Origin: Caulobacteraceae bacterium
GTDB taxonomy: Bacteria; Pseudomonadota; Alphaproteobacteria; Caulobacterales; Caulobacteraceae
Assembly: GCA_025450315.1 (NCBI GenBank)
Contig: JANWHQ010000031.1
Coordinates: forward strand, 1-64,000
Direction of reading: 5' to 3'
DNA: 64,000 nt
Positions 23,201-48,170 of this stretch are shown here, in pieces. The notes under the pieces were generated by a model, which did not search any database, had not been told where the DNA came from, and saw nothing but the letters and a program-made list of their open reading frames with translations. How positions within the stretch are numbered: the first letter of the stretch is position 1; the number at the start of each line of letters is the position of its first letter. Both the position numbers and the translations under genes were made by a program.

Positions 23201-24813
23201 TCGCGCGCGACATGCTGCTGGAGAATGCCTTCGAGCAGCTCGGCAAGTTCAGGCCAGCCACCGCCAAGGCCTATCGGGAGCTGTTCGACAAGCCGGCTCT
23301 GGGCCGCTTCTGCCGGGACGCAGGCCTGTCGCTGGGCGTTGCGGGCTTCGCCGAGGTCGAGGAGAAGGCGCTGGGGTTCACGCCCTCGGCAGAGCTGCTC
23401 CGCACTGGCCGCCTGATCGGCAAGGCGGTGGACTCCCTGACCGCCGCGCGCGAACCGGAGGCGCCGCCCCAGGGTCTGCTGCAATACGGTCTGGGCCGCT
23501 CGCTCGAGGCCCTGGGCCGCCATGCGGAAGCGCTGCGGGCCTATCAGGACGCCGTCGCCAGCGCGCCAACCTACTTCCCCGCCCGCGCCGCCGCCGCGCG
23601 CTATCTGGAGCTGGCCGGCCGGCCAGCCGAGGCCGAGCGTCTGCTGCGCCAGGGCCTGGGCAATGGCACGCCCGATCCGGACGTGCAGGAGGGCCTGCTC
23701 GACTTCTATCAGCGCAACGCCTCGCCGCGGGGCGTGGCGGCCGTCTCGCGGCTGATGCTGAAGCGCGGCCAGAGCCGCCCGGCCATCACCGCCCCGGCGC
23801 TGGTGGAGCTGGGCCGCTGGCGTGAGGCCGAGCCGCTGTTGAAGACCCTGTCCGCGCGGGTCGCCGGCCAGGACAATTTCGTGAACGACCTCACCGACCT
23901 GCCGGAGCTGGCCCGGGAGCTGGAGAGGCTGAGGGCGGCCGCCGAGGGCGGCGGCGCAGGCGCCGAGCTCAGGTTCGCCGAGGCGCTGAGGCGGCTGGGC
24001 AGGCTGGACGAAGCGCTGCCCTGGTATCGTCGGGCTCTCGCCGATCCTGGCGTCCTGGAAGCCGAGACCGGCGTCGGGGCCGAGGTCCGCCCGCGGTTCC
24101 TGATGGTTGGACCGCCGCGCACGGGCACCACCCTGCTGCGCCGGCTGTTCGACCTGCACCCCAAGATCGCCGCGCCCTCGGGCGAGCTCTTCTTCTTCTC
24201 CAACCGCACCGGACAGCGCGCCGGCAGCAACCGCCAGAGAGCCCCGCTCTCCTGGTATCTGGGCGCCTTCAAGGCCGCCGCCGAGCGCAAGCCCGACGCC
24301 AGGCTGATCGGCGAGAAGACCCCGCACTATTTCTCGACCTCCGACGCGCAGATGGCTTTCGCCAGCCTGTTGCTGCCCGACGTCAAGATCATCGCCACCC
24401 TGCGCGATCCGGTGGTGCGCGCCTGGTCGGAGATCAAGGTGCAGCGCCGCGCCACCGAGGCGGAGATCGTCGCCGCCCTCAGCGAGGGCGCGTGGCCCAA
24501 CTGGCTGGCCGAGATCGTCGACGCCGGCCGTTATGGGGCGCACCTGAAACGCTGGCTGAAGCACATCAGGCCGGACCAGCTGCTGCTGGTCGACTGCGAT
24601 GCTCTGGAGACCAATGTGGTCGAGGAAGCCGGCCGCATCTTCCGCTGGCTCGGCGTGCGCGAGCTGGGGAGGCGGCAGGTCGAGGGCCTTCAGCAGGGCT
24701 GGAACAACCGCACCGAGAACTTTGCGCCCAGCGCCGAAGTCGAGGCACTGCTGCGCGGCGCCTATGGCGACGAGCCCTGGCGCGCGGCCGAGGTCGGTCC
24801 CGAGCTGGGTTAG
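20266..24813 (+). CDS. Giant TPR protein with coiled coil and sulfotransferase domain(s)
   Basis: A 1515-residue protein. Residues ~1-585 are paired TPRs in a ~67-residue alternation (for example LARLLEDQGLKARAL, AWRRVLSLAPDD, EAHERLA). Residues ~590-705 form a charged coiled coil containing a 32-residue tandem repeat (LKRERGA...LTRLEREERAH). Residues ~840-1050 read like a divergent Stf0-type sulfotransferase, a weaker call. More TPRs lie at ~1070-1240. Residues ~1275-1515 are a standard PAPS-dependent sulfotransferase: VGPPRTGTTLLRR (5'-phosphosulfate loop, near 1280), GEKTPHYF, and ATLRDPVVRAWSE (3'-phosphate binding). No signal peptide, so cytoplasmic. It may sulfate a glycan or protein held by the TPRs. 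Confidence 0.85.
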   Translation: MSVIDWGARQRAKFALRAADRLRNSGAFDKAVAAYERAAELDAGLKQQALESASVLLIEQRRPAEAAPRLQALVALDKKNADNWRRLARVLRETGDRRGAIKAWRRVIDVEPRDIEANQALVEMQPEAAAESIEPLRIVAEAAWPADPKPQRRLARLLADHHRADDALDAWRRILEAQPGDVEAHERSANLLEAAGRKAEAAVHLAAAAEATPSKVKLWRRLAKLLEETGSGPDAFRALQRALEADPGDVQVHASLARLLEDQGLKARALSHVRAIAEAGKDTEAWRRLARLATELSRPDDAVAAWRRVLSLAPDDREAHHAMAGLLQADPARAVEHLKALARVTPKKPEVQRNLGRVLMELGDTPGAIETWRRLLKLDEHDIDAHAALAELLYDRKGMAAPHLEVLAERGPDPAGASLRLAQLLIRTGDRAAARPHLERLLAADPSNAPVREALAQVLLDLELFAEAATHLRAIALAAPDKPQGWKRLADSLRRSGDLAAEAQAWRHVLAIAEDDPQAHERLAHLMIEAGRPAEAAAHFRALVQALPDNAKIWRRYVRARRQADESVEELALWREVLGVAGHGELESQLKRAEEAVRRNQDLKHELQGVGAELKRERGAAQHALTRLEREERAHSETRELYKDELKRERGATHQALTRLEREERAHRTIQGLYKDEVAERRRLAAELQESAQRQRQAEAEEASHLIAGRLIGLLEPMAGAEASAASQADEAAAYVEESLRAAAAAGALVVASEADARLAGVGVTSLADLPAKLRGRGSRLVILADRNAGVRAEIRESLAGKRGLGVLDLFELVIRRAAGLEDPRGQVEPVSDDVWPARPLMVMCSDDSLRDAVAESIRKATDLAIAPLFPIALAAKVLARELDLDDWLAAAWSAHGRPRAFGFQFDPETLALFAREVRSGRAPVMAKVFRRATALHLAWSDKALFAAAEHFARSGEGVGADFDAGDAQIEVKTYKRLIARDMLLENAFEQLGKFRPATAKAYRELFDKPALGRFCRDAGLSLGVAGFAEVEEKALGFTPSAELLRTGRLIGKAVDSLTAAREPEAPPQGLLQYGLGRSLEALGRHAEALRAYQDAVASAPTYFPARAAAARYLELAGRPAEAERLLRQGLGNGTPDPDVQEGLLDFYQRNASPRGVAAVSRLMLKRGQSRPAITAPALVELGRWREAEPLLKTLSARVAGQDNFVNDLTDLPELARELERLRAAAEGGGAGAELRFAEALRRLGRLDEALPWYRRALADPGVLEAETGVGAEVRPRFLMVGPPRTGTTLLRRLFDLHPKIAAPSGELFFFSNRTGQRAGSNRQRAPLSWYLGAFKAAAERKPDARLIGEKTPHYFSTSDAQMAFASLLLPDVKIIATLRDPVVRAWSEIKVQRRATEAEIVAALSEGAWPNWLAEIVDAGRYGAHLKRWLKHIRPDQLLLVDCDALETNVVEEAGRIFRWLGVRELGRRQVEGLQQGWNNRTENFAPSAEVEALLRGAYGDEPWRAAEVGPELG
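22102..22293 (+). repeat. Two tandem 96-base repeats in the coiled coil
   Basis: Units 22102-22197 and 22198-22293 encode two 32-residue copies beginning ELKRERGA and ending LYKDE. They are mostly identical in DNA. They extend the coiled coil of the TPR-sulfotransferase by one in-frame duplication. Confidence 0.85.
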
Positions 24814-24915: not shown

Positions 24916-26178
24916 CTAGCTGGGCGGGATCGGTTCTGGCCCCAGCACCGTCAGGATTTCGTCGAGCAGCCGCCTGTCGACCGTTTCCCGATAGACCACC
25001 GGCATCTCGACGAGCCCCCATCTGGCGTTATGGACCAGGATGTCGTCGACTTCCTCTTCCATGCGCTTGAGCTTGGCTTCGTCCAGGCTGCACAGCCGCC
25101 GGACCTCGTCCACCACCATCTCGAACCGCACGGCGGGGTCGAGCTCCCGGTCGTAGCCCTCTTGGAAGTAGCCGGGGAAGGTTCTGAAACCCAGCTCGCG
25201 GATGAGCTCGAGCGACCCGGCATTGCCGAGGACGATGAAGGGATGGAAGCTGAGGAGCGGCTTGAGGCTCTTTTCGGTGATCCGCCGGGGCCCTTCCATT
25301 TCCGTTTCCGAGACGACCGTGAACCAGGAGTCGTCGTGCTCCCGCAGGTCCATGTCGTAGTAGGGGGCCTTGATCCGGTTCGGATCGGTCTTGGTGCGGG
25401 GCAGCTCGCCGAACAACACTTGCCCATGCCCGTCGAGCTCAGGAACCAGCTGGGCCAACCGGGCCGGCTTGTCGCCCCATCCCTCCACCGAGTTGAGATA
25501 ATTGACGAACTTCCTGAGTTGGGTGGCGCGGTGGCCGCGAAGTGAGAACCCGCCAAATGAAATATGTCCAAGATCCCAGATTTGATCCTGGATTAGCTGC
25601 AACAAGAACAACGTCTTGTGAAATCGCGGGGTGAAGTTCAGGCACAAATATCGCTTGTTACGGTGCGCCGCTCGAGAGCGGTAGAATTCAAGTCGCCGGT
25701 CGAATACTCTCTGTCCTTTTGTGGGAGAGCTGCGAAATATAAGAGAAATATAATAGTCGTAATTGAGAACGGTGACGGGTTGTTTCCAGCCAAGATCGCG
25801 ACAATGAGCGAGATAGTTGGCGCGATAGCTGCGATCCTGCGTGACGTAGACGCACCGGCTCGGCGGTAGACCTGTTCTCTCGATGTAGGAATGAAGCTGC
25901 GCCGTACGGCTCGCCGAATGCACCATCCCTTCGCCTGAACAGTCGAAGACCACCGCCGTCAGGCCTGACTTGACCCAGTCCACGAGATCGGGCGGAAGGC
26001 GGAATCGATCGGACGAAAAGTCCAGATGCCCCTTGCCGTCGGCCACAACCAACAGATCGGGAGGGCCGGCCATGTGTTCTTCGAGATCGAGGAGGCATAT
26101 CTGATCTGTCATCAGCTGAAAGAGGGTCTTCTCGGAGGTGACCCGCAAGACGCTGACTTTTCGACCGTTGATCGCCAT
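24916..26178 (-). CDS. Unknown protein with GT10-like C-terminal motif, low-GC insert
   Basis: A 420-residue protein I cannot name with certainty. The C-terminal third has VVSETEMEG...ITEKSLKPLLSFHPFIVLG and ELGFRTFPGYFQEGYD. The E...TEK...P...G pattern recalls the nucleotide-binding end of GT10 fucosyltransferases and of phage/viral proteins of unknown function. The N-terminus (KVSVLRVTSEK) has no signal peptide. Part of the gene, about 25560-25860, drops to ~42-43% GC by hand count in two 60-base lines against ~70% around it, a sign of recent transfer. Start: ATG at 26178; an upstream TTG at 26202 is possible. It lies between the two TPR-sulfotransferases, so a sugar-related role is likely but unproven. 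Confidence 0.6.
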   Translation of the reverse strand: MAINGRKVSVLRVTSEKTLFQLMTDQICLLDLEEHMAGPPDLLVVADGKGHLDFSSDRFRLPPDLVDWVKSGLTAVVFDCSGEGMVHSASRTAQLHSYIERTGLPPSRCVYVTQDRSYRANYLAHCRDLGWKQPVTVLNYDYYISLIFRSSPTKGQRVFDRRLEFYRSRAAHRNKRYLCLNFTPRFHKTLFLLQLIQDQIWDLGHISFGGFSLRGHRATQLRKFVNYLNSVEGWGDKPARLAQLVPELDGHGQVLFGELPRTKTDPNRIKAPYYDMDLREHDDSWFTVVSETEMEGPRRITEKSLKPLLSFHPFIVLGNAGSLELIRELGFRTFPGYFQEGYDRELDPAVRFEMVVDEVRRLCSLDEAKLKRMEEEVDDILVHNARWGLVEMPVVYRETVDRRLLDEILTVLGPEPIPPS

Positions 26179-26355
26179 CGACGGCACTGTTAGCCCAGCC
26201 AAACGGCGGGGCGCAACCTGGCGGCGGCGGCCGATGATCGTCGTGGAGATGACCGAGAGGGGCCGCCATGAATCCGATCACAGTCGTTGCCCAACCGGCT
26301 CGCGCATTGCTACTCACGCGCACGAGCATGGGGCGATAACCGAAAGCTTCAGTGG

Positions 26356-29300
26356 ATGATGGATGTTGTCGACAAAGCCGTCCCGTCGCCCTCCGCGGAT
26401 GAGACCGCGGCGGACGGGATCGCCGGGCGCCGGGCGCGGGCCCGGGATCTCGGGGCGGCCCAGGATGTCGAGGGGGCCGTCGAGGCCTGGCGGCAGGTCC
26501 TCGCGCTGGACCCGGCAGACCGCGAAGCCCATTTGAGGTTGTCCGAGCTGCTTTACGACAACGAAGCCACCCGTCCCCAGGCGGTACAGCACCTACGGAT
26601 CGCCGCGCAGCGCGACCAGGGCAAGGTGAAGCCGTTCCAGCGTCTGGCGCGGGCCCTGGAGGCGGCCGGCGAACTCGACGAAGCCATCGATGTCTGGACC
26701 AAGGTGCAGGCGAAGGTTCCCCATGACCTGGAGGTGCAGGAGCGTCTCTGCGCGCTGCTCTCGACCCGCGGCCGTTGGCTCGAGGCGATCCCTTATCTGC
26801 GGGCGGCGGCCGAGCGGGACGGATCCGCCAAGGCCTGGCACCGCCTGGCGCGGGCCTATGATGCGATCGCCGACGCCGAGGGGGCGATCGAAGCCTGGCG
26901 GACGGCCTGCGAGATCGACCCGAGCATCTTCGAGCCGCACGACCGCATGGCCGACCTGTTCACGACCGCCGGCCGGCTGGCCGAAGCCATCCCTCATTTG
27001 CGCGCCGTGGCGGAACATGACGGCGTGGCCAAGGGCTGGCATCGCGCGGCGCGGGCGTACGAAGTCGTCGGCGACGCCGAGGGGGCGATCGATGCCTGGC
27101 GGACGGCCTTGGAGATCGACCCGAGCATCTTCGAGCCGCACGACCGCTTGGCCGACTTGCTCACGGCCGCGGGACGGCTGGCCGAAGCCGTCCCTCACCT
27201 GCGCGCCGTGGCGGAACATGACGGCCTGGCCAAGAGCTGGCATCGCGCGGCGCGGGCCTGCGAAGGCGTCGGCGACGCCGAGGGCGCCATAGATGCGTGG
27301 CGCACGGCCAGCGAGATTGATCCGACCGTCGCCGAACCTCACGAGCGCCTGGCCGAGCTGCTGACGGACAAGCGGCCGATCGACAGCATTCCCCATCTGA
27401 GATGGCTCGCCCAGGCGGATGGGGCAAAGGTCAAGGTCTGGCAGCGGCTGGCGCGGGCGCTCGAGCAGGCCGGCGATCTGGCCGGATCCGTCGACGCCTG
27501 GAAAGAGGTGGCGGCCCAGGCGCCGACCGACGCGGAAGCTTCGCTCAAGCTGAGCCGAGGATTGCCCAAGCTGGGCCGCTGGCTGGAAGCGATCCCCTAT
27601 GCGGAGGCCGTGGCCCGCAAGACCGGCGACGACGTCAAGGTCTGGATCAATCTCGCCCGACTGCTGAAGCGCGCGGGCGCGTCCGAGGAAGAGCTGCGCG
27701 CGTGGCGGCAGGTGCTGTTCCTGGATCCCCGTTCGGTCGAGGCCCACTCGCGCCTGGCGCACCTGCTCTGGACGTCGGACCGCAAGAGCGAGGCCGCCGA
27801 GCACATGAAGGCCCTCGCCGGCCTGGCGCCCGGCGAGATCGGCCGCTGGAAGCAGCTGGCGGCGGCCCTCGAGGACATCGGCGATCAGACCGGGGCCATA
27901 GGCGCGTTGCGCAAGGCCCTCGCCATCCGACCTGAAGACGTCTCCAGTCACGAGAGGATGGGCGAGCTGCTCCTGGCTCTTGGACGAAAGCCCGAGGCCG
28001 TCCAGCACATGCGCCGCTACGCGGAGCTGTCCGGCGAGCGGACCAAGCCGTGGCGCAATCTGGCGCGACTGCTCGAGGAGCTAGGGCGCGAACGGGACGC
28101 GGCGAGGGCGTGGCGCCGTGTGCTGAAAGTCAGCGAGTCGGACTCCGAAGCGCATGAGCGCCTGGCCAGCCTGTCCGGGAGGGAAGGCGACAAGGCCGGC
28201 GCCATCCGCCACATCGAGGCCCTGGCGCGCATCGCTCCCAAGGACGCGGCCGGATGGGACCGGCTGGCGCGGGCGCGGGCCGACGTCGGCGACCTGGCCG
28301 GCGCGGTCGAAGCCTGGCGCCTGGCGCTGGCCGCATCCGAGGAACCCGAATTCCACACTCAGATCGGCATCGCCCTGCTGCCGCTCGACCGCAAGCCCGC
28401 CGCGCTCGAGCACTTCCAGAGAGCGGCGGCGCTGACGCCCATGGAGGAACGCCGCTGGCGGCATCTGGCCCGGTGCGCCCAGGACGTCGGCGAGGCGGCG
28501 GTGGCCGCGGACGCCTGGCGGCAGGTGCTGGCGCTCACCGGAACCGACGAGGAGGCCCGCGAAGGCCTGCTGGCCCTGGGCGGCTCGCGCGAGGAAGAGC
28601 TTTCGGTCCAGAGCGACGCCGGATACGCCGCGGCCCTGTTGCGCTTCTGGGGCGAGATCTCGGCGCGGGAGGAGCCCCACCGCGAGAGCGTTCGCCACAT
28701 CGCCAGCGAGCTGGCGAAGGTGATCGGCGGGCTGACCGGCTTTGCCCGCATCACCCATCCGGAATCGATCGGACGGCGCCTCGAGGCGCTGGACCGGATC
28801 TTCCGCGACCCCAGATTCGCCAGCCTGGCGGCGGCGAGGCCCGACGACATCCAGGAGGTGCTGTCCGGCCTGGAAGGCGATGGCGCCGCCCTGGCTCAGC
28901 AGGCCCTCATGGCGGCGGGCCCCGACCTTGCGCGCGCCCTGATTGCGGCGCCGGCCGGTTCCGCGGCGAGGTTCGCCGTCGACGAGACCCAGGCCCGCGC
29001 CCTGCGCCTGGGCCCGGATCCGGCCTTCCAGCGGCCGGTGCTGATCTGCGGCTTCCACCACTCCGGCACCCGTGTGCTGGCCCAGGCGCTGCAGGGCGCC
29101 GGCGTGTTCCAAAAGATGAACACACCCTCCCTGGAATGGACCTACGTCCAGTGGCTGAACACCATCATGCTGCCCGGCTGGACCGACGTCGAAGCGATCC
29201 GAGCCTTCGATCCGCAGGCCGCCGCCGCGTTCATTTCGCAGGACGAACTGGCCTTCCGCCTGGCGGCGGCGGGATACGGCGGCCAGGGACCCTGGGCGCA

Positions 29301-29769
29301 CAAGGACCCTCGCAATTCCGTCACCGCCGGCGCCTGGCTGAAGGCCTTTCCTGGCTTGCGCATCGTCCACATCACCCGTCAGCCCGACGACGTGCTCGGC
29401 ACCCTGCCAGGGCGATATGCGCGCTATTCGCCGGGCGGGAAGTCGCCGCAGGAGACGCTGGACTTCTGGTCGGCCCTGTGGACGTCCTACCTGGACGCCA
29501 CCCGTGCGGCCATGGCCGGCGCCGCCCACAGTATCGAAGTCACCTTCGAGGACCTCTGCCGAGAACCCCGGGCGGTCATGGGCCGCATCGCCAAGGCGCT
29601 CGACCTCGATGTCAGGCTCAGCGCCACGGACATTGCTGGCCTCGGCCTCAATCCGGAAAAGATCGGCGAGCACCGGCTGTGGCTCGACCGGGGCCAACTG
29701 GACGGCGACGATCTGGCGCGCCTGCAGGCTCTTGGAGCGGCTTCCCTGCCAGGGAGCGGGCGATCTTGA
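26356..29769 (+). CDS. Second large TPR-sulfotransferase
   Basis: A 1137-residue protein: TPR pairs fill residues ~20-760, a linker with no clear motif covers ~760-890, and a C-terminal sulfotransferase-like domain begins at ~893 with VLICGFHHSGTRVLAQAL (5'-phosphosulfate loop) and continues with WAHKDPRNS and IVHITRQPDDVLGTL (3'-phosphate region). The GFHHSGTR loop is a less common variant. The TPR unit is like that of the 20266 protein, and three units at ~26880-27482 are nearly identical. Start: ATG 26356 or the next ATG at 26359; upstream codons to 26287 are in frame but lack a start signal. The FkbM gene follows 30 bases later. Probably a cytoplasmic PAPS-dependent enzyme acting on a TPR-bound target. 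Confidence 0.85.
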   Translation: MMDVVDKAVPSPSADETAADGIAGRRARARDLGAAQDVEGAVEAWRQVLALDPADREAHLRLSELLYDNEATRPQAVQHLRIAAQRDQGKVKPFQRLARALEAAGELDEAIDVWTKVQAKVPHDLEVQERLCALLSTRGRWLEAIPYLRAAAERDGSAKAWHRLARAYDAIADAEGAIEAWRTACEIDPSIFEPHDRMADLFTTAGRLAEAIPHLRAVAEHDGVAKGWHRAARAYEVVGDAEGAIDAWRTALEIDPSIFEPHDRLADLLTAAGRLAEAVPHLRAVAEHDGLAKSWHRAARACEGVGDAEGAIDAWRTASEIDPTVAEPHERLAELLTDKRPIDSIPHLRWLAQADGAKVKVWQRLARALEQAGDLAGSVDAWKEVAAQAPTDAEASLKLSRGLPKLGRWLEAIPYAEAVARKTGDDVKVWINLARLLKRAGASEEELRAWRQVLFLDPRSVEAHSRLAHLLWTSDRKSEAAEHMKALAGLAPGEIGRWKQLAAALEDIGDQTGAIGALRKALAIRPEDVSSHERMGELLLALGRKPEAVQHMRRYAELSGERTKPWRNLARLLEELGRERDAARAWRRVLKVSESDSEAHERLASLSGREGDKAGAIRHIEALARIAPKDAAGWDRLARARADVGDLAGAVEAWRLALAASEEPEFHTQIGIALLPLDRKPAALEHFQRAAALTPMEERRWRHLARCAQDVGEAAVAADAWRQVLALTGTDEEAREGLLALGGSREEELSVQSDAGYAAALLRFWGEISAREEPHRESVRHIASELAKVIGGLTGFARITHPESIGRRLEALDRIFRDPRFASLAAARPDDIQEVLSGLEGDGAALAQQALMAAGPDLARALIAAPAGSAARFAVDETQARALRLGPDPAFQRPVLICGFHHSGTRVLAQALQGAGVFQKMNTPSLEWTYVQWLNTIMLPGWTDVEAIRAFDPQAAAAFISQDELAFRLAAAGYGGQGPWAHKDPRNSVTAGAWLKAFPGLRIVHITRQPDDVLGTLPGRYARYSPGGKSPQETLDFWSALWTSYLDATRAAMAGAAHSIEVTFEDLCREPRAVMGRIAKALDLDVRLSATDIAGLGLNPEKIGEHRLWLDRGQLDGDDLARLQALGAASLPGSGRS
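26881..27483 (+). repeat. 201-base tandem repeats within the TPR region
   Basis: Copies start at 26881, 27082 and 27283, exactly 201 bases (67 codons) apart. The first two differ at few positions (both encode IDPSIFEPHDR); the third is more diverged. The pattern shows recent in-frame duplication of a TPR pair. Confidence 0.85.
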
Positions 29770-30657: not shown

Positions 30658-32256
30658 ATGGCTCAGATTGACGATCTTCTCGGCGCGGCGGAGTGGGCGC
30701 GCGCCCGCGAGGCGGCCGCGGGCGGTCCGCGTGTGCTGCTGGCCACCAGCATGGGGGGTCTCAACCACGGCGCGATGACCGACAAGGCGCTGGCGATCGC
30801 CCTGACGCTGCGCGGGGCGGCGGTGGACATCTTCCTCTGCGACGGCGCGCCGGCCTGCCAGCTGACCAAGATCGGCAAGGAATCCCCGGCCAAGCTGATC
30901 GAGACCGATCGCCGCATCCGGTGCCCGGCCTGCACCGATATCGGCCAGACCGTTTTCGCGCCGCTGGGCCTCAGGGTGCTGCGGCTGAGCGAGTTCCTGA
31001 CCGAGGCCGATGTCGAACAGGCGAGGTCGCTGGCCGTCGGGGCCGACATCTCCAAGCTGGTGGATTTCACCTTGAACGGCTGGCGGGTGGGCGAGCACGC
31101 GCGGGCCGGGGCGCTCAGGTACTTCGCCCGGGGCGATCTGGCGCGCGAGCCGCAGAGCGAGGGCGTAGCCCGCACCTTCCTGCAGGCGGCCATCCGCAGC
31201 GCCCTCGCCTTCGACCGCATCCTGAGCCAGAACGACTACGTCGCGGTCAGCGCCAACCATGGGATCTACACGCCTCAGGGCGTGATCGGCGAGGTGTCGC
31301 GCAAGCGCGGCGTCAGGGTGGTGAACTGGAACCCGGCTTATCGGAAGCACTCGTTCGTGTTCAGCCACGGCGACAGCTACCACCGCACCATGATCACCGA
31401 GGACGTCTCCACCTGGGAGGACCTCGACCTCGACGGTCCCCGCGCCTCGACCATCACCGACTATCTGCGCGATCGCCGTCAGGCCAAGGGCGACTGGATC
31501 TGGTTCAACAACTCGGGGGATACCTCGCGCGACGAGATCGCTCAGCAACTGTCGCTCGACGACCGGCCGATGGTCGTGGCCCTGACCAGCGTGGTCTGGG
31601 ACGCCTGCCTCCACTACGACTCCAACGCCTTCGAGAGCCTGCAGGACTGGCTGTTCCAGACGGTCGAGTACTTCGCCTCCCGGCCCGACCTGCAGCTGGT
31701 GATCCGGGTGCATCCGGCCGAGGTGACCGGCTTCGTCAAATCCAGGGACAAGATCGCCGACATCCTGGCCGATCGCTTTCCCGAGCTGCCCGAGAACGTC
31801 CACGTCATCAGGCCCGACAACACCCTCAGCACCTATTCGCTGATCGATCACGCCAACGCCGTCCTGGTCTACAGCACCAAGACCGGCATCGAGGCCTCCG
31901 CCCAGGGCGTGCCAGTGGTCGTGGCGGGCGAGGCCTGGATCCGCAACAAGGGCTTCACCCAGGACGCGTCTTCGCCGGCGAGCTATCGCGAGATTCTCGA
32001 CCGGCTGCCCCTTGAGGGACGCCTTTCGGAGGCGGAGCGCGAGCGGGCGATGCGCTATGCCTACCACTTCTTCTTCCGGCGGATGATCGAGCTGCCTTTC
32101 CTGGTCGACACCGGGCCGGCCGAGTTCGATATCCAGGTCGACACGCTGCGGGACCTGGCGCCGGGCGGGCAGGGGGGGCTGGACCAGATCTGCGAAGGCA
32201 TCCTCTCAGGCGCGCCGTTCGTCTACGACAAGCTCGAGCCGGCGCCGGCGGTATGA
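30658..32256 (+). CDS. Capsule-type GT-B glycosyltransferase
   Basis: A 532-residue protein with a two-domain GT-B layout. The N-terminal domain begins RVLLATSMGGLNHGAMTDKAL and IFLCDG, with a cysteine motif RCPACTD near residue 85 that may bind metal. The C-terminal domain has LQLVIRVHPAE, VHVIRPDNTLSTYSLIDHANAVLVY, and GIEASAQGVPVVVAG, which match capsule polysaccharide biosynthesis proteins (KpsC/KpsS-like and surface carbohydrate GTs). It is 132 bases downstream of the FkbM gene and 103 bases upstream of the GT-B/GT-A fusion gene. Transfer of a sugar to an intracellular glycan is likely; donor unknown. Confidence 0.75.
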   Translation: MAQIDDLLGAAEWARAREAAAGGPRVLLATSMGGLNHGAMTDKALAIALTLRGAAVDIFLCDGAPACQLTKIGKESPAKLIETDRRIRCPACTDIGQTVFAPLGLRVLRLSEFLTEADVEQARSLAVGADISKLVDFTLNGWRVGEHARAGALRYFARGDLAREPQSEGVARTFLQAAIRSALAFDRILSQNDYVAVSANHGIYTPQGVIGEVSRKRGVRVVNWNPAYRKHSFVFSHGDSYHRTMITEDVSTWEDLDLDGPRASTITDYLRDRRQAKGDWIWFNNSGDTSRDEIAQQLSLDDRPMVVALTSVVWDACLHYDSNAFESLQDWLFQTVEYFASRPDLQLVIRVHPAEVTGFVKSRDKIADILADRFPELPENVHVIRPDNTLSTYSLIDHANAVLVYSTKTGIEASAQGVPVVVAGEAWIRNKGFTQDASSPASYREILDRLPLEGRLSEAERERAMRYAYHFFFRRMIELPFLVDTGPAEFDIQVDTLRDLAPGGQGGLDQICEGILSGAPFVYDKLEPAPAV

Positions 32257-32359: not shown

Positions 32360-34960
32360 GTGACCGAAGTTGAGAGGGTCGGCCGGTTAGGCTTGGTTCG
32401 CGAGCACGTCGGGACCCGCGGCAATATTCACCTGCTGCATCTTGTCCCGCATTCTATTGGGTCGGAGGACTTTCGTCTTCACGGCAGCACCAAGGACGTC
32501 GTCGGACGCCACCAGTACTTCCGCGAGCGGGGCATTTCCTACGACATCTTCTATCACCGGCGGAACGTCGATCTTCTGAAGAAGGTGCTCGCCGGCGACG
32601 ACCTGCCCGATTACACCCACATCCTGGTCGACGGCTCCTTCACCTTCGCCGACTGGAAGCACCTGCGCCGCCGATGGCCGACGGCCAAGCTGATCTTCCG
32701 CTCGCACAATTCCGAGCTGCCGCACCGGGTCGACACGGTGCGCTCCCTGGCCTTCGTCGCTCCGACCGACGACATGGACCGCCAGGCCCAGGACAAGATC
32801 GACGCGCGACTGAACCGGCGCATCTTCCTGGATCGGGATATCGCGGCGGCCCGCTTCGCCGACAGCATCATCACCATCGAGACCCTGAAGTCGGCGTCGC
32901 GCTATTGGGCCTGGCTGGGGTTCACGGGCGAATTGGTCGAGGTCCCCTATTTCCTCTCCGATGACTACGTCGCCGAGATCGAGGCCGAGGCGGCCCGCCA
33001 GGCGGGGGGCCGGCGCAAGTGGCTGGTCGCGGTCATGTCGTCCCACCCGGGAGCTCTCACCTACCACGGTCTTCTGGCGCTGCATCAGGCGGTCACCAAC
33101 CTCGGAGACCGGCGCGCGGACTGGCGCTTCCGCGCGACCGGACGTTCGTTCTGGATCAAGAACCATCCGGCCTACTCGCCGCGGGTGAAGCCGCTGGGGG
33201 TGGTCGACGACCTCTACAACCTGATCGCCCTGTCCCGCGCGGTGGCCGTGCTCTCCGACCTCGGGCGCGGATTCAAGACCAAGATCCTCGAGGCGATCCT
33301 GTGCAAATGCTGGGTGCTGGTCACGCCGACGCTGTACCGGCGTCTGCCGGATGCAGTGCGGCCCTATTGCCTGATCGTCGACCCCGACAGCCCGTTCGCG
33401 CTTGATGAAGCCCTGGACCGGGTCGAGCGCAAGGACTGGCCGGGCGGGAATCCCAACGCGATCATGCGCTCGAGCGCCTACCACGCGCTGGACACCATCC
33501 TGCTGGGTGAGCCGCCGGCGGCCGACGTCAAGGGCGCCTCCTTCGACGAGCCCGTCGCCGGAAGCCGCAAGTCGATCCCAAAGCCCTGGAACCAGATGTT
33601 CTCGGACGACGCGCACGCCGCCTCGTTCTGCACGGTGCTGACGCCTCTGCACAAGAAGGTCGCCGCGCACAACTGGGAGATGGTGGCCAAGCAGAATCCG
33701 GCCTTCGATCCCAAGTGGTATATCGTGGACAATCACGACGTCCACATGGCCAGCAAGAAGTCCACGGCTTTCCTGCGCAAACTGAAGGACATCCGCGGCA
33801 AGCCCGGGCGCGAGATCCGCGACCTCTATCTGCAGCGGGCCAAGGAAGAGTATTACGACTACGGCGATATCGCCGATTACTTCCCCGGCGCGGACCTCAT
33901 CGACGGCTGGTCGCTGGACCAGACGTTCGACTTCTATTCCGCCAAGCTGGATTCCACGCCGGCCGAGCGGCCGGAACACGAGCGCCTGCTGCGCAAGTTC
34001 CTGGCCAGCTACCACCACGCCTCGGGGCTGAACCTGTCGCTGGAGCGGGTGCGCTCGAAGTATGCGGTGGTGATCGACCCGGACCTCTACGTCATCCGGC
34101 CCAACTGGCTCGACGACGTCATCACCCACATGCAGGAGCATGACCTGGCCGCCTTCGGCGTGCCGTGGAACCCGCGCTGGTACTGGAAATACAGGTACTT
34201 CCCCTGCACCCACCTGATGATCCTGGACCTGGAGAAGTGCCCCTTCCGCCAGGACATCCTGGCCCCCGATCTGGTGCGCTACGGCCAGAAGTTCACCTCC
34301 AAGTTCTGGATGGAGCAGATGCGGCTCCGCAAGGAGGATCCCGAGGCGGCCAGGAAGCACCTGAGGTCCGATCTGCCGCGCGCCTTCGCCGAGGACCTGA
34401 AGCAGCGGCGGACCATCGCCGCCTCCGGCGACACCGGCTACGGCCTGATCGAGGAGTTCAAGCACAACCCGGCGCTGCGCTATGACTCCGCCACGCCGGT
34501 CTTCTCGCTGGACATGGGCTTCCAGCCACCGACGGTGAGCCCGCTGCAGCGCTCCATCGACCACCTGTTGCCCGACAGCTTTTCCTACCTGCCCAAGCGC
34601 GCGGGCTCGATGTCCGAGCAAGGCTTCGACTCTTTCGGGCTGCCCGACTGCCGCCAGTTCGGCTGGGAGGAGTTCCTCTGGAAGGGCGAGCCCTTCGCCT
34701 TCCACGTCCGCGGCGAACTGCACCGCAAGCCGGTGGGCCGCACCGACGACGTCCAGGTGCTGAACGTCTTGAACGCCATCATGCGCCAACAGGGGGCGAC
34801 GCCGGTGGCCGACAACACCTGGTGCGGGGCCGACCTGATGGCGACAGAGCAGAAGTCCTGGCACTACCTGGACGCCGAATATGCCGAGAAGCGCGCCGAG
34901 TTGCTGGGCAAGGACGAGCAGCCTCAGGAAGAGCCGCCGACCGAGGTTTCCGCGGCATAG
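32360..34960 (+). CDS. GT-B/GT-A two-domain glycosyltransferase fusion
   Basis: An 866-residue protein made of two parts that exist elsewhere in this window as separate convergent genes. Residues ~23-395 match the GT-B-like protein of 18906-19982 (HGSTKDVVGRHQYF, SHNSELPHR, GRGFKTKILEAILCKCWVL). Residues ~420-840 match the GT-A-like protein of 17896-18909 (VVIDPDLYVIRPNW near 570, YFPCTHLMILDL, FAFHVRGELHRK). The start is GTG 32360 by homology (the conserved LLHLVPHS begins at residue ~24). Such fusion suggests the two activities work together, adding two sugars in turn or serving one linkage. No membrane segment was seen. Confidence 0.85.
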   Translation: MTEVERVGRLGLVREHVGTRGNIHLLHLVPHSIGSEDFRLHGSTKDVVGRHQYFRERGISYDIFYHRRNVDLLKKVLAGDDLPDYTHILVDGSFTFADWKHLRRRWPTAKLIFRSHNSELPHRVDTVRSLAFVAPTDDMDRQAQDKIDARLNRRIFLDRDIAAARFADSIITIETLKSASRYWAWLGFTGELVEVPYFLSDDYVAEIEAEAARQAGGRRKWLVAVMSSHPGALTYHGLLALHQAVTNLGDRRADWRFRATGRSFWIKNHPAYSPRVKPLGVVDDLYNLIALSRAVAVLSDLGRGFKTKILEAILCKCWVLVTPTLYRRLPDAVRPYCLIVDPDSPFALDEALDRVERKDWPGGNPNAIMRSSAYHALDTILLGEPPAADVKGASFDEPVAGSRKSIPKPWNQMFSDDAHAASFCTVLTPLHKKVAAHNWEMVAKQNPAFDPKWYIVDNHDVHMASKKSTAFLRKLKDIRGKPGREIRDLYLQRAKEEYYDYGDIADYFPGADLIDGWSLDQTFDFYSAKLDSTPAERPEHERLLRKFLASYHHASGLNLSLERVRSKYAVVIDPDLYVIRPNWLDDVITHMQEHDLAAFGVPWNPRWYWKYRYFPCTHLMILDLEKCPFRQDILAPDLVRYGQKFTSKFWMEQMRLRKEDPEAARKHLRSDLPRAFAEDLKQRRTIAASGDTGYGLIEEFKHNPALRYDSATPVFSLDMGFQPPTVSPLQRSIDHLLPDSFSYLPKRAGSMSEQGFDSFGLPDCRQFGWEEFLWKGEPFAFHVRGELHRKPVGRTDDVQVLNVLNAIMRQQGATPVADNTWCGADLMATEQKSWHYLDAEYAEKRAELLGKDEQPQEEPPTEVSAA

Positions 34961-34984: not shown

Positions 34985-35800
34985 CTAGGTGAACGCGGCG
35001 TAGCGCCGGTAGTACTCGAACGGGGTCAGCTGTTCGGAAAAGTACTTGTAGGTCGACTCGGGGTCATACCAGCGAAGATTGAAGTGCTCCGCGACCGTCG
35101 GGTGGATCGGTACGTGGATGTCCCCCATGCCGCCCGAGGGCCAGCTCAAGTCGCTCTCGGGAGCCGGAACATCCAGGGCGTCGTAGATGGTCTGCCGCAT
35201 GTAGCGCAGCATCGGCGGGGAGGGATGGTTCCTGGTCACGAAGAGCTGCTTTTCGCGGAAGTTGTCGTAGACGTATTTCCCGAAGGGAATGTCCGCGCGC
35301 TGATCCAGCTGCTCGGCCTTGGCGAGGTTGATCTCGTAATACCGCTGAAGATCCGCCTTTTCGCCGATGTTCATTTCCAGCCACCGACGGGCCGCCTTTT
35401 CGGGAGTGTCGCCGGCGTCGAGCGACTCGAGAATGGTCCTGTCGCCGTAGGGAAACGGGCCAGCGGGGTATTGTTCTGTCGGCTTGTTCCGGGGGTCGTT
35501 GACCTCCATCGGCCAGAGGATGTTCATCCATAGGATCGGGAAGGTGATCACCCTGCAGTCGGCCGGGATGTGTTCCTTGTTGGCCAGCGGCGGGGCCTGG
35601 TGGCTGATCTGCTCCAACAGGACCGCGCATTTGGCGAAGTCCTCCATCTCCAGCGGTTGCTGTTCACGCGTCTTGAAATTGCGAAACCGCAGCAGCCGGT
35701 ATTCGCCGTGCAATATCGGGCTCTCGACCAGCGTCTTGTAAATAAAGGACGCCTGGCAGTTGCCAGATACGATTATGGTGCGCCTGTTACGCTTATCCAT
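34985..35800 (-). CDS. WcbI-family polysaccharide biosynthesis protein A
   Basis: A 271-residue WcbI-family protein. The family's GNCQ motif is at the N-terminal beta strand (IIVSGNCQASF), followed by VLLEQISHQAP and FPILWMNILWP. WcbI of Burkholderia capsule loci binds CoA and is thought to be an acetyl- or acyltransferase. It is a paralogue of the gene directly upstream (35810-36670), 9 bases away. The last gene of a ~9 kb minus-strand block that also encodes an ACP and an AMP ligase, so an acyl transfer to sugar is plausible. Confidence 0.85.
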   Translation of the reverse strand: MDKRNRRTIIVSGNCQASFIYKTLVESPILHGEYRLLRFRNFKTREQQPLEMEDFAKCAVLLEQISHQAPPLANKEHIPADCRVITFPILWMNILWPMEVNDPRNKPTEQYPAGPFPYGDRTILESLDAGDTPEKAARRWLEMNIGEKADLQRYYEINLAKAEQLDQRADIPFGKYVYDNFREKQLFVTRNHPSPPMLRYMRQTIYDALDVPAPESDLSWPSGGMGDIHVPIHPTVAEHFNLRWYDPESTYKYFSEQLTPFEYYRRYAAFT

Positions 35801-35809
35801 TACCGGCCC

Positions 35810-36670
35810 TCAGTTCGACAATGGGTCCACGACCAGCGACGGGTCAGGGTCCGCGTGCTCGGCCAAGGAATTGGCCGCATAACGCAGGTAGTACTCCCGC
35901 GCGGCCAGCCGCTCGGTATGGAAGCGATGGGCGGCGTTTGGATCGTACCACTTGAGGCCGAAGTGGCTCGCCACCGAGGGGTGCACGGGAACCTGGATGT
36001 GCCCCATCCCGCCGGACGCTTCGACCAGGTCGCTCTTGGGCGGCTCCACGCCGATGGCCTCGAAGATCTTCTGTCGAAGCTCGAACAGCAGCGGAACGGA
36101 CGGATGGTTGCGCGTCTCGAACATCTTGGTGTCGACGAATCTGTCAAAAACGTCGCGCGCCAGGGGCACCTCCGCGCGCTCGTCGAGGAACTCGGCCTTC
36201 TTGAGGTTGATCTCATGGAAGCGGGGCAGATCGTAGAGCTGATCAAGCGGCGAGGCGAAGAAACGGTCGACCGCCTGCTCGGGTGTCAGGCCTTCGTTGA
36301 GAAACTCCAGGATCAGCCGGTCCCCATAAGGGAAACGGCCGCCGGGATAGTCCGGCTCGGGCGTGCTGCGCGGATCGTCGATCATGGTCGGCCAGAGGCT
36401 GCTGCCCCACAGGATGGGAAAGCGGACGATCCGGCAGTCGCCCGGGACGTCCTGCTGGTGTGGCAGCTCTGGCGCCTTGTGGGCGATCTGCTCCAGAAGG
36501 ATCGCGCATCGGGCCACGTCCTTGGCCTTAAGCTCACCCTGGTTGTTCTTCCTGAAGTTGCGGAAGTAGATGATGTCGTAATCTTCGCTGAGTTCCGGGC
36601 TTTCCTGCAGGGCGCGGCAGAGGAAGTTGCTCTGGCAATTTCCAGCAACGATCAGACTGCGGTTAGCCAC
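35810..36670 (-). CDS. WcbI-family polysaccharide biosynthesis protein B
   Basis: A 286-residue WcbI-family protein with IVAGNCQSNF at the N-terminus, AILLEQIAHKAPELP, and FPILWGSSLWP. It shares most motifs with the next gene (34985-35800), including RNHPS and GGMGHI/GGMGDI with HPTVA/HPSVA segments, so the two arose by tandem duplication. The GTG start at 36670 overlaps the end of ACP 3 by eight bases, a strong sign of coupled translation. It may transfer the acyl chain that ACP 3 carries. Confidence 0.85.
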   Translation of the reverse strand: MANRSLIVAGNCQSNFLCRALQESPELSEDYDIIYFRNFRKNNQGELKAKDVARCAILLEQIAHKAPELPHQQDVPGDCRIVRFPILWGSSLWPTMIDDPRSTPEPDYPGGRFPYGDRLILEFLNEGLTPEQAVDRFFASPLDQLYDLPRFHEINLKKAEFLDERAEVPLARDVFDRFVDTKMFETRNHPSVPLLFELRQKIFEAIGVEPPKSDLVEASGGMGHIQVPVHPSVASHFGLKWYDPNAAHRFHTERLAAREYYLRYAANSLAEHADPDPSLVVDPLSN

Positions 36671-36955: not shown

Positions 36956-38614
36956 CTAGGACCGCCCGTAAGCTTCCAAATACTTGGCCTGATTGGAAGA
37001 CCTGGCGATCTTCCCGCTCGTCGTCTTCACCAGCCATCCGGCCGGAACGAGCTTAACCGCCCGTGGCAGAAAGCCGAAATGCTCGAATATGGCCGCGCGG
37101 GCGGCCCGGACGATCTGGGGGTGGCTCGCCGCGTCCGCGTCGCTCTCGGCGAGGAGCACCAGCTCCTGGCTGCCGGTTTCGCCGCTCTCGATTCCCAGGG
37201 CGATGCACCGCCCGGGCTTGATGTCCGCCACGGTCTCGTTGACCGCGATCTCGATGTCGTGGGCGAAGACGTTGCGGCCGTTGAGGATCAGGAGGTCGTC
37301 GTTGCGGCCCAGCAGGAAGAGCTCGCCGTCATGGGCGAAGCCGACGTCGCCGGAGTGGTACCAGCCGTCGCGGATCCGGGCGGCGTTGAGGTCGGGGCGG
37401 GCGACATAGCCGCTGAACATGTAGCTGGCCTGGATGCAGACCTCGCCGACTTGGCGATCGGCCAGGATCTCGCCGTCGGGGCCTTCGATCCTGATCTTGG
37501 CGCCCGAGATGGGACGGCCCACCGACAGGACCTCGCGGCCTCCCTCGGCGCCAGGGGGCCATTCGGCGGCCCGGCCGAGGCCCAGCTCTGCGGCGTCCAG
37601 GTTGAGTGTACGGGGAGGGCGGGTCACGGTCTGGGTCACGGCGAACACCGCTTCGGCCATGGCGTAGCATACCGCCAGCTGCCGCTCGGTCACGCCCAGG
37701 CGGGCGAGGGCTGCGGCGAACAGCCTCAGGCTGTGGGCGTAGCAGGGCTCGGAGCAGTCGATGAAGGCGCGGACGTGGGAAAGGTCGGCGTCGAAGTCCT
37801 CGGGAAGGGTCCGGACCAGGTGATGCAACGCGAAATTCGGCAGCCACGCCAGGGTCCCGCGCCGCTCGGCCATGGCCGACAGCATCAGGCTCGGCTGAAC
37901 CACCCACTCGAAGGCGTCCAGCGAGACAAGGGGGACGCCGGTCAGCAGCGGCAGCATGAAACAGGCGATCAGCCCCATGTCATGGTAGAGCGGCAGCCAG
38001 GAGACGATGACGTCGTCGGCCTTGAGCTCGAGCGCCGCCGAGTAGCGCTCGATCTGCTCGCACACCGCGGCGTGGGAGAGGGCGACGCCCTTCTTCAGGC
38101 CGGTGGTGCCAGAGCTGTACTGGATGAAGGCGGTGGTCGACGGATCGATGGCGCGGGCCGGCGGCTGGGCGGCTGCCCGGGCGTCCGAGGGCGTGAACAC
38201 CCGCAGCCGCGGGAACCGCGCGCCGAGCTCGGCGGCGTTCTCGGGGTAGGTGACGGCGATCCCGATGGCGGTCTGCTCGAACACGTCGCGATGGTTGCGC
38301 CAGTAGAGCTGCGGGTCCTGGCGGGGCGAAGGATGCGGCATGAAGCTGGGAATGCAGCCGTGCAGGATGGCGCCCAGGAACGCGTAGTAGAGCTCCGGCG
38401 AGTGCTTCAGGACGATGGCGACCTGCCGCCCCTCCGCCACCTCTCCCGAGGCGAACATCGCGGCGTAGCGGTTGGATCCCTCCAGCAGGTCCGCATTGGT
38501 CAGGGTCGTCTCGGCGCCGCGGGCCCGGAAATGGCAGAACACCGCCTCCGGGGCGTCCTCGGCGCGTCGCCTGAGCGCGGCGACGATGTCGCGCAACGGC
38601 GCGCGCGGCTGCAT
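36956..38614 (-). CDS. AMP-dependent acyl-ACP/fatty-acyl-AMP ligase-like enzyme
   Basis: A 552-residue adenylate-forming enzyme. The AMP-binding P-loop is YSSGTTGLKKG around residues 165-176, with SWLPLYHDMGLI next, the A5-like YAMAEAVFAVTQ, and GWYHSGDVG...LFLLGRNDDLLILNGRNVFAHDIE as the C-terminal core; the final lysine motif TTSGKIARS is present. The YHDMGLI motif is typical of fatty-acyl-AMP ligases that load ACPs directly. ACP 3 directly downstream supports that. The start ATG at 38614 overlaps the stop of the GT-B gene (TGATG). Substrate chain unknown. Confidence 0.88.
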   Translation of the reverse strand: MQPRAPLRDIVAALRRRAEDAPEAVFCHFRARGAETTLTNADLLEGSNRYAAMFASGEVAEGRQVAIVLKHSPELYYAFLGAILHGCIPSFMPHPSPRQDPQLYWRNHRDVFEQTAIGIAVTYPENAAELGARFPRLRVFTPSDARAAAQPPARAIDPSTTAFIQYSSGTTGLKKGVALSHAAVCEQIERYSAALELKADDVIVSWLPLYHDMGLIACFMLPLLTGVPLVSLDAFEWVVQPSLMLSAMAERRGTLAWLPNFALHHLVRTLPEDFDADLSHVRAFIDCSEPCYAHSLRLFAAALARLGVTERQLAVCYAMAEAVFAVTQTVTRPPRTLNLDAAELGLGRAAEWPPGAEGGREVLSVGRPISGAKIRIEGPDGEILADRQVGEVCIQASYMFSGYVARPDLNAARIRDGWYHSGDVGFAHDGELFLLGRNDDLLILNGRNVFAHDIEIAVNETVADIKPGRCIALGIESGETGSQELVLLAESDADAASHPQIVRAARAAIFEHFGFLPRAVKLVPAGWLVKTTSGKIARSSNQAKYLEAYGRS

Positions 38615-40059
38615 CAACTGGCGGCCGCCTTGGCGGGGGATGTTGCATCCGCCTTCTGGGCCACGCCCTCCGACCTCGCCCTATGGGCGCGCGCCAGCTT
38701 GAGGGCCACCTCGCCCACCACGTCGCCGGCAGGGCGGCCAAGGCCATTGGGACGGGCGAAGGCCACGGCGAACTTCTTGCGTTTGCCCGCCTTGTCATCC
38801 TGTCCGGCCCGCACCTTCTGCAAGCCTCCGACGAAGTCTCTGAGGGTGTTGCACAGGAACATGGCCCGACTCTCCTCGAGGTAGCGGAAGTGGACCGCCG
38901 AGGACTGGGTGTTCTTGTACTGCTTGACCCTGACGGTGAAGGTCGGGACGTCCGCCAGCACCGAGTCGATCATGGCGCTGGTGTTGATCCCCAGCGAGCC
39001 GATGCAATGGGCGAACGAGGCCCGCATCATGCCGAAGTCCTCGCCCGTTTCGGGCAGGGCCCCGCCTTCAGGCCAGACCTTGATCTCATCGCTGACGATG
39101 GCGGGATAGATCTCGGCGTTCGCCGGGTGAGGCCGCACCAGGATCTGGCAGTCGGCCAGCGTCTCGCTCGCCTTCAGCTTGCCGTGCACCGCGCTGATGA
39201 ACCAGGTCTCGTCGGCGGCGATATTCTTGGACGAGCCGAGGTAGAGCAGGATCGGCCGCTTGGGGTCTAGGCCCACGGTCCGGCAGAAGGTCTCGCGGTC
39301 GATGATATCGGTGGGCGAGGTGAACCATTTGTCGAAGAAGGGCGATCCGGTGACCTTGATCTCCTCGGGCTTCAGCCCGTGGACGGCGGCGGCGTCGGCC
39401 TGCTGATAGGCGTTCCAGACGTAGAGCAGGTCCGGCTTGACGTGGAACAGGCCCTTGGTCGACAGGTTGTCCCAGCTGATGGTCAGGGCGGTGACCGGGA
39501 TGCCGAGCTTCTTGGCGGCCTTGGCGTATTCCACCTCTTCCGAATAGCGCAGGTTCTGCGGCGAGCAGATCAGCAGGTCCGGCCGCCGGCTCTGGATGAA
39601 TTCGATGATCGCCGGATCGGGCGGCACGAGGTCCTCGATCCATTCCAGGATCTTGCCGGTGATCGGCCACTTCAGGATCGCCTCGGCGAAAGGCAGATTC
39701 AGCCGCGCCTTCCAGGCGTCGCTGAGGTAGGCGCGCCACCGCTTGATGTAGAACGGCGTCGTTTCCGGCCGGGTCACATAGCTGCGATAGGTCCGCAATT
39801 CCCGTAGTTCGAAGATGAACGACCGGAAGCGGTCCTCCCGCCGCTTGAGCCAGCTCATGCGGAACGAGGGATACCTGGCGGTGAAATTCTCGATCACCGT
39901 GCGATCGATGCCGCGGAGCCACTTGGAGCTCCACTTCTTGTCGAGCAACAGTTCGACCCGGCCGCCTCGCTCGATGATGGAGGCCAGCACGGTCTCGTAA
40001 TAGGAGAAGTGGCCGATCGAGCGGCCGACGAACAGAATTCGCGGTCGGTTGCTCTTCAC
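38614..40059 (-). CDS. GT-B-like glycosyltransferase (surface carbohydrate/CDP-glycerol transferase-like)
   Basis: A 481-residue protein whose N-terminal Rossmann strand reads RILFVGRSIGHFSYYE. Later come PDLLICSPQN, TISWDNLSTKG, KVTGSPFFDKW, ILLYLGSS and CQILVRPHP, which fit CDP-glycerol glycerophosphotransferase-like or surface-carbohydrate GT-B enzymes. The GTG start at 40059 follows a strong purine-rich run GGGGGTGGGTAGG; an ATG at 40098 in frame is possible but leaves a non-conserved-looking leader. Its stop overlaps the AMP-ligase start. An Ala-rich tail ends the protein. Sugar or polyol donor not identifiable. Confidence 0.75.
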   Translation of the reverse strand: MKSNRPRILFVGRSIGHFSYYETVLASIIERGGRVELLLDKKWSSKWLRGIDRTVIENFTARYPSFRMSWLKRREDRFRSFIFELRELRTYRSYVTRPETTPFYIKRWRAYLSDAWKARLNLPFAEAILKWPITGKILEWIEDLVPPDPAIIEFIQSRRPDLLICSPQNLRYSEEVEYAKAAKKLGIPVTALTISWDNLSTKGLFHVKPDLLYVWNAYQQADAAAVHGLKPEEIKVTGSPFFDKWFTSPTDIIDRETFCRTVGLDPKRPILLYLGSSKNIAADETWFISAVHGKLKASETLADCQILVRPHPANAEIYPAIVSDEIKVWPEGGALPETGEDFGMMRASFAHCIGSLGINTSAMIDSVLADVPTFTVRVKQYKNTQSSAVHFRYLEESRAMFLCNTLRDFVGGLQKVRAGQDDKAGKRKKFAVAFARPNGLGRPAGDVVGEVALKLARAHRARSEGVAQKADATSPAKAAAS

Positions 40060-46863: not shown

Positions 46864-46921
46864 GGCTTCGCCCAGACTATCGATCGGGGCGAGTCCGCGT
46901 GGTGCGGGCGGCGGATTGGTC

Positions 46922-47935
46922 ATGGCGGCTGGCAAAATCACGGCGATCGCGAGCCAGTTGCCCGAGGGCGTGCTGACCAGCGAGGCGCTGGCCGAACTCT
47001 ATCCTGGCTGGCCGCTCGCCAAGATCATCGACAAGACCGGGGTGCGCGAGCGGCGCATCGCCGCCGTCGACGAGACCGCCCTGGACCTCGGCGAGAAGGC
47101 GTCGATCAAGCTGCTGGCCGAGACGGGGACCGACGCCGGCGAGATCGACTTCGTCGTCTTCTGCACCCAGACGCCTGACCACGCCCTGCCGGGCAACGCC
47201 GTCCTGCTGCACCGGCGGCTCGGGCTCAGGCCCGACTGCGGCGTGCTCGATTCGGGGCTCGGCTGCTCGGGCTTCGTCTACGCCCTGGCGGTGGTCGAGG
47301 GGCTGATCGCCACCGGCGCGGCCGATTGCGTGTTGCTGGTCACCGGCGACACCTATTCCAAGTTCATCCACCCGCTGGACCGCAGCGTGCGCACCCTGTT
47401 CGGCGACGCGGCGGCCGCCACCCTGGTCCGGCGCGCCGCGGACGACGAGCGCGCCATCGGCCCCTTCGTCTTCGGCGCCGACGGCCGGGGGGCCGAGAAC
47501 CTGATCGTGCCGGCCGGCGGCGCCCGCCTGGCCGCGCCCGCCGGCGAGCTTGAGCTCGAGCCCGACGATTTCGGCAATGTGCGCGGGCCGGCCAACCTCT
47601 ACATGAACGGCGCCGAGGTGATGGCCTTCGCGCTGAAGGCCGTGCCGGAGGCGGTGGCCAAGCTCCTGGCCAAGTCGGACCGCTCGATCAACGACTACGA
47701 CCTGGTGGTGCTGCACCAGGCCAGCGCGCTTCTGCTCGACAAGCTGCAGCGCAAGCTCGGCGTGGGCGACAACCGCTTCGTCCGCCGTCTGGAGCTGTGC
47801 GGCAACACCGTTTCCTCGACCATCCCGCTCGCGCTCGAGCCCCATCTGCAGGAGGTCCAGGCCTCGCCGCGCCGCGCCCTGCTGGTCGGATTCGGGGTCG
47901 GCTACGCCTGGGCGGCGGCCGAGATCCTGATCTGA
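46922..47935 (+). CDS. Beta-ketoacyl-ACP synthase III-like enzyme 1
   Basis: A 337-residue FabH-type (KAS III) condensing enzyme. The catalytic triad is present: Cys115 in GLGCSGF, His in VLHQAS, and Asn in CGNTVSST. The oxyanion and dimer elements TGDTYSKF and FGDAAAATLV are in place. FabH-type enzymes condense an acyl-CoA with malonyl-ACP. Start ATG 46922. It is followed after 10 bases by ACP 4. In the P. aeruginosa flagellin glycosylation island equivalent synthase genes precede ACP and reductase genes, which suggests production of a short 3-oxoacyl-ACP for amide-linking to an amino sugar. Confidence 0.9.
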   Translation: MAAGKITAIASQLPEGVLTSEALAELYPGWPLAKIIDKTGVRERRIAAVDETALDLGEKASIKLLAETGTDAGEIDFVVFCTQTPDHALPGNAVLLHRRLGLRPDCGVLDSGLGCSGFVYALAVVEGLIATGAADCVLLVTGDTYSKFIHPLDRSVRTLFGDAAAATLVRRAADDERAIGPFVFGADGRGAENLIVPAGGARLAAPAGELELEPDDFGNVRGPANLYMNGAEVMAFALKAVPEAVAKLLAKSDRSINDYDLVVLHQASALLLDKLQRKLGVGDNRFVRRLELCGNTVSSTIPLALEPHLQEVQASPRRALLVGFGVGYAWAAAEILI

Positions 47936-47945
47936 GGAGAGACAC

Positions 47946-48170
47946 ATGGACGACTTCACCGCGGGCCTTGCCGAGATCTTCGAGGTCGACGACAGCGAAA
48001 TCGCCCCGGGTTTCGACCTGGAGAGCCACAACTGGGATTCCCTGGCGATCGTGTCGGTGATCGCCCTGGTGGACAGCTGCTTCGGCAAGCTGCTCAACGG
48101 CAAGGCGCTGGCGCAGTGCAAGACGGTCTCGGACATCGAGGCCCTCGCCAACCAGGCCGAGGCCGCGTGA
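47946..48170 (+). CDS. Acyl carrier protein 4
   Basis: A 74-residue carrier protein. NWDSLAIV holds the pantetheine Ser32. It is encoded between two KAS III genes: 10 bases after the first, and overlapping the second by four bases (GTGA). A GAGGAGAGA Shine-Dalgarno precedes the ATG. Its sequence differs from the fatty-acid AcpP; it is likely the dedicated carrier of this cassette. Confidence 0.92.
   Translation: MDDFTAGLAEIFEVDDSEIAPGFDLESHNWDSLAIVSVIALVDSCFGKLLNGKALAQCKTVSDIEALANQAEAA

Follow-up and report, generated by a model that had tools for sequence, protein, structure and literature searches.

Fused and Separate Transferase Genes in the Window

The window (the whole 64-kb stretch of DNA analyzed, from a Caulobacteraceae bacterium) carries a GT-B-type and a GT-A-type glycosyltransferase twice, once as two convergent genes and once as a single fused gene. 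The frame of the fused gene was intact and stop-free over all its 866 codons. The features of the two loci, and of the genes next to them, were as follows:

17896–18909, plus strand: separate gene of GT-A type, encoding 337 aa when read from the ATG at 17896 (ORF, BLASTP, alignment)
18906–18909, strand-neutral: CTAG palindrome that contains the stop codon of each convergent gene
18906–19982, minus strand: separate GT-B-type gene, 358 aa (ORF, BLASTP, Pfam)
20266–24813, plus strand: TPR protein with a C-terminal sulfotransferase domain, adjoining the separate pair
26287–29769, plus strand: another TPR-sulfotransferase protein, located between the convergent pair and the fusion
30658–32256, plus strand: capsule-synthesis-like gene (PF05159), the immediate upstream neighbor of the fusion; a gene of the Parvularculaceae cluster described below is 62% identical to it
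32360–34960, plus strand: fused gene, 866 aa, GTG start, encoding GT-B (GT4-like), linker and GT-A (GT2-like)
32417–33523, plus strand: GT-B domain of the fusion, residues 20–388 (PF13692 and structure model)
33266–33292, plus strand: RGFKTKILE, residues 303–311, at the place of the GT4 EX7E motif (alignment)
33524–33607, plus strand: linker joining the domains in frame (codon-position GC, sequence)
33608–34804, plus strand: probable GT-A domain of the fusion (homology, weak PF00535 match, structure model)
34076–34084, plus strand: DPD, residues 573–575, candidate DxD metal/donor motif (alignment of homologs)

Pairwise comparisons indicated that each half of the fusion is homologous to one of the separate genes. 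BLASTP aligned residues 23–385 of the fusion with the product of 18906–19982 at 42% identity over 364 aa (259 bits, E 2e-83), and residues 549–814 with the product of 17896–18909 at 33% identity over 273 aa (132 bits, E 4e-38). A global alignment also paired the N-terminal strand of the GT-A part with the separate GT-A protein and revealed a long insert in the fusion. When 12 control proteins of the window and related loci, most of them glycosyltransferases, were compared with the fusion by BLAST, the best E value was only 0.04. In addition, leave-one-out profiles from which the fusion had been excluded scored it at 353 bits for the GT-B half and 319 bits for the GT-A half, and the best control protein reached 14.8 bits with the same profiles. 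Together, these data confirmed the original prediction that the halves match the separate GT-B and GT-A proteins, and the two separate genes were indeed convergent, as had been noted, with stop codons that overlap in one CTAG.

Long antisense frames, such as that at 32387–34864 on the minus strand, face the real genes of this region. They are expected to be shadows of the high GC content at codon position 3, not genes.

Family Assignment and Predicted Folds

The Pfam family Glyco_trans_1_4 (PF13692) matched both the first half of the fusion (E 5.5e-8) and the separate GT-B protein (E 9.2e-8) above its cut-off. The match of the second half to Glycos_transf_2 (PF00535) was below the Pfam cut-off, and the separate GT-A protein encoded at 17896–18909 had no Pfam match. 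Searches of NCBIfam, PHROGs and PDB sequences returned no match for the transferases.

The structure model of the first half (pLDDT 79, pTM 0.81) matched the GT4 retaining enzymes MshA (3c4q), HepE (4xsu), PglA (8dqd) and PimA (2gej) with a Foldseek probability of 1.00 and E values of 1e-9 to 1e-7, and assignment of this half to the GT-B fold is well supported by the modeling. The model of the second half was of modest quality (pLDDT 67, pTM 0.70). Its matches to Ktr4, LARGE1 (9e1t), glycogenin (3rmv) and SpsA (1h7q) had E values of 3e-5 and weaker and low TM-scores, and a GT-A fold is likely for this half, although less firm. The resemblance to SpsA, glycogenin and LARGE1, which are GT-A enzymes of the GT2/GT8 type, is one of predicted fold and of the DxD-like DPD, with TM-scores of about 0.2–0.5 and 8–14% identity.

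Conserved motifs provided candidate catalytic residues for both domains. The GT-A family keeps DPD, which was present in five of five homologs, together with DTG and, close to the C-terminus, FxxH. The GT-A half is a member of an uncharacterized family of its own. The GT-B family keeps G-F-K-T-K-x-L-[ED] in the alignment, and the stretch RGFKTKILE of the fusion lies at the position of the GT4 EX7E motif. In the fusion R303 replaces the first acid of the motif and the second, E311, is present; across four GT-B homologs the first Glu is R or M, and the second is E or D. Because the EX7E motif is incomplete, we labeled the first half GT4-like and not a GT4 member. GT4-like families can carry substitutions at the first EX7E position. 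The first half is thus like MshA, HepE, PglA and PimA in fold, but it is only 13–15% identical to them and has Arg or Met in place of their canonical first Glu.

A Tandem Pair in a Parvularculaceae Genome and Other Arrangements

A peptide-pattern scan of a genome collection (84,980 species) identified a single further locus, in a Parvularculaceae MAG (genome G541). At this locus (L005) the genes for a GT-B protein (418 aa) and a GT-A protein (425 aa) stand in tandem on one strand, in the order of the fusion and separated by 28 bp. The GT-B protein was 38% identical to the fusion over 368 aa and the GT-A protein 37% over 413 aa. With both halves homologous to separate proteins, and with this independent split pair in another genome, the Rosetta-stone fusion claimed in the original prediction was borne out.

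The genes around the tandem pair (L020) share one strand and are, in order, an ABC ATPase, an ABC-2 permease, the GT-B gene, the GT-A gene, a TPR-sulfotransferase and a capsule-synthesis-like gene. The window has a TPR-sulfotransferase gene beside its convergent pair, and the neighbor of the fusion is the capsule-synthesis-like gene. That these four gene types are common to both genomes is the best evidence that both transferases serve one process.

The TPR-sulfotransferases encoded at 20266–24813 and 26287–29769 are very large; a homolog of 1857 aa is encoded behind the Parvularculaceae tandem pair. Between the two TPR-sulfotransferase genes of the window, a gene on the minus strand (24916–26202) encodes a 428-aa protein with no Pfam or NCBIfam match.

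The long insert in the GT-A domain was common only to the fusion and the Parvularculaceae protein, and the separate GT-A gene of the window lacks it. Because of this insert, the tandem order and the 62% identical neighbor, we favor the fusion and the Parvularculaceae pair as the orthologous loci. Consistent with this assignment, the GT-A half of the fusion scored 276 bits each against the Parvularculaceae protein and against a GT-A domain of genome G573, and 132 bits against the GT-A protein of its own window; the convergent pair therefore appears not to be the direct counterpart of the fusion, which refines the original prediction. In the best trees the GT-B half grouped with its Parvularculaceae counterpart (support 66/67), and the GT-A half fell close to the domains of Parvularculaceae and G573 (support 46–49), with no reliable branch, and a clade of both window GT-A copies was not rejected (p 0.36). 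We had considered discordant histories for the two halves, as by identity the GT-B half is nearer to the window copy and the GT-A half nearer to that of Parvularculaceae, and dropped the idea since the trees were too weak.

Each domain type was also observed apart from the other. In G573 the GT-A domain, 38% identical to that of the fusion, is N-terminal in a 691-aa protein (L012:1318–3393) whose C-terminal part is a canonical GT2 domain, and in genome G1040 it stands alone and adjoins a flippase-like gene. The GT-B type was absent from both G573 and G1040. In the Caulobacteraceae genome the GT-B type occurs a third time, on contig C162. No GT-A gene accompanies this copy, which lies immediately after a capsule-synthesis-like gene with 49% identity to the upstream neighbor of the fusion. 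The pairing is thus not exclusive: the GT-A module changes partners, since it is fused to GT2 in G573 and has no partner in G1040. The survey of fused and split forms suggested with the original prediction found tandem, convergent, swapped-partner and lone forms.

The capsule-synthesis-like family has three copies in the Caulobacteraceae genome (contigs C31, C162 and C132), and relatives of 38–63% identity occur in G541 (contig C70) and G573 (contig C61). In each of the latter two genomes one copy adjoins a transketolase-like gene.

The family is rare. With the fusion as query, no other genome was found among 60 relatives and 385 genomes of the class. A GT-B profile matched 2 of 398 genomes of the order (the Caulobacteraceae genome and G541) and, of 399 genomes of the phylum, only the Caulobacteraceae genome. 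The GT-A profile matched G541, G573, G509 and G1040, of which the G509 match was rejected as a generic GT2. Both genomes of the order sample that have the GT-B type (2 of 2) also have the GT-A type, two cases that are not independent, as the block may be common by descent or by transfer. There was no match for the fusion or the separate GT-A gene among plasmid and phage records, for the free GT-A of G1040 or the GT-B copy of C162 among plasmids, or for either domain profile among viral contigs.

Proposed Role and Origin of the Fusion

We consider it probable that the fused gene encodes a bidomain Leloir-type transferase, arisen by fusion of a tandem pair, that adds two successive sugars to one surface glycan. 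The GT4-like GT-B domain and the GT2-like GT-A domain would add these sugars to a growing capsule- or O-antigen-type glycan, and this class of glycan is also the probable target of the upstream capsule-synthesis-like transferase and of the clustered TPR-sulfotransferases. The convergent pair at 17896–19982 would represent an older paralogous pair, probably serving a related glycan or branch. From the sequences we infer that both domains are catalytic and that they act successively; the fusion may polymerize, or it may add only two linker or branch sugars. The joint action of the GT-B and GT-A enzymes, which the original prediction had foreseen, is probable, and the case for it is strengthened by the Parvularculaceae tandem pair, with its genes in the order of the fusion and its orthologous neighbors. 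Several observations count against this proposal: the fused form was found in one genome only, the convergent pair cannot form one operon, the GT-A domain has a GT2 partner in G573 and none in G1040, the GT-B copy of contig C162 has no GT-A partner, the trees are too weak to tell which copies are orthologous, and the GT-A model is of modest quality.

The strongest competing explanation, which we consider rather less likely, is that loss of a stop codon joined two operon neighbors neutrally. The two domains would then act in the same pathway at steps that do not follow one another, and the fusion would mainly fix their ratio. The 28 bp between the tandem genes of the relative, the short and unremarkable linker and the other partners of the GT-A domain are all consistent with such an event. 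However, the halves are conserved at about 37–42% and have kept their candidate catalytic residues, and the co-occurrence of both families in the two genomes with the GT-B type also speaks against a neutral event.

With respect to origin, the original prediction had allowed either a fusion or a split with inversion. The tandem Parvularculaceae pair supported fusion, and a split with inversion was not needed. In-frame fusion of a tandem B–A pair appears from the sequences to be the more parsimonious route, and it is the shorter path because the fused state was seen once and split states several times. Fusion of a tandem pair also means that the convergent pair requires a rearrangement of its own, and this pair looks like a diverged paralogue that was rearranged separately. 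Under the opposite scenario, a fused ancestor was cut to give the Parvularculaceae tandem pair and, after an inversion, the convergent pair of the window. The tandem pair and the fusion do agree in domain order and the trees are too weak for an exclusion, but this route is unlikely, as it requires two separate fissions plus an inversion. Moreover, the domains also occur free or with other partners, which suggests free ancestral forms, and the insert common to the fusion and the tandem GT-A is missing from the separate GT-A gene of the window.

It is very unlikely that two neighboring genes were merged into the single frame by an error of assembly or sequencing. The fused form is known from one assembly only, which consists of 164 contigs and has an estimated contamination of 5.7%. 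However, the 866-codon frame has no stop, and an artefactual join is improbable because GC by codon position (1/2/3) is uniform through the linker (0.54/0.46/0.93, with flanks of 0.66/0.44/0.88 and 0.62/0.40/0.93). A resemblance of the halves to the separate proteins through generic GT-A and GT-B folds alone, the outcome named with the original prediction as its refutation, has a negligible probability: the Pfam families that match the halves are indeed broad, and the second match is below the cut-off, but the profile scores relative to the controls have already refuted it, and the long motifs common to the halves and the separate proteins also speak against it.

Two-module transferases, fused or split, are already known in bacteria and animals, and the fusion that we favor here is a new and rare example. 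Among the O-antigen polymerases of Klebsiella, that of O12 has both transferase modules in one polypeptide, and the O4 modules reside on different polypeptides, whose interaction was seen in two-hybrid tests (PMC11231755). WbbB (O12), WbdA (O3) and the split O4/O7 systems all provide the two modules for one polymer, either fused or separate but interacting (PMC11231755). They differ from the fusion in belonging to other GT families, and the fusion has no recognized terminator module. The exostosins EXT1, EXT2 and EXTL3 (GT47 + GT64) function in heparan sulfate synthesis, and each domain is thought to add one sugar of the alternating chain (PMC9178029). A GT-B and a GT-A domain are present in one polypeptide, as is probably the case in the fusion, and the exostosin pathway includes sulfotransferases (PMC9178029). 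The exostosins are nevertheless of other families than the GT4-like and GT2-like domains of the fusion, which is bacterial; no sequence relation to them was found and none is expected, and the likeness is one of architecture, alternation being a feature of the exostosins.

By analogy with the exostosins, we speculate that the GT-B and GT-A domains could form a copolymerase, built from unrelated enzyme families, whose alternating heteropolysaccharide would be sulfated by the TPR-sulfotransferases. We regard this possibility as doubtful. If it is correct, the product would be a bacterial sulfated glycosaminoglycan-like capsule, in parallel to heparan sulfate synthesis. The locus also offers a testable pairing for two families in which this analysis found no characterized member, and the fused, tandem, inverted and swapped-partner forms are a natural set for asking why modules join or stay apart. 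Otherwise, the gene is ordinary as a fusion among polysaccharide transferases.

The next genes downstream of the fusion are two tandem WcbI-type genes (PF18588) on the minus strand, at 34985–35800 (E 7e-24) and 35810–36670 (E 5e-23). The glycan cluster also has a fatty acyl-AMP-ligase-like gene (36956–38617, minus strand), and two genes on the plus strand at 46916–47935 and 48116–49240 were KAS III-like from a reading of their sequences. The presence of acyl-AMP-ligase-like and KAS III-like genes in a glycan cluster hints at acyl decoration.
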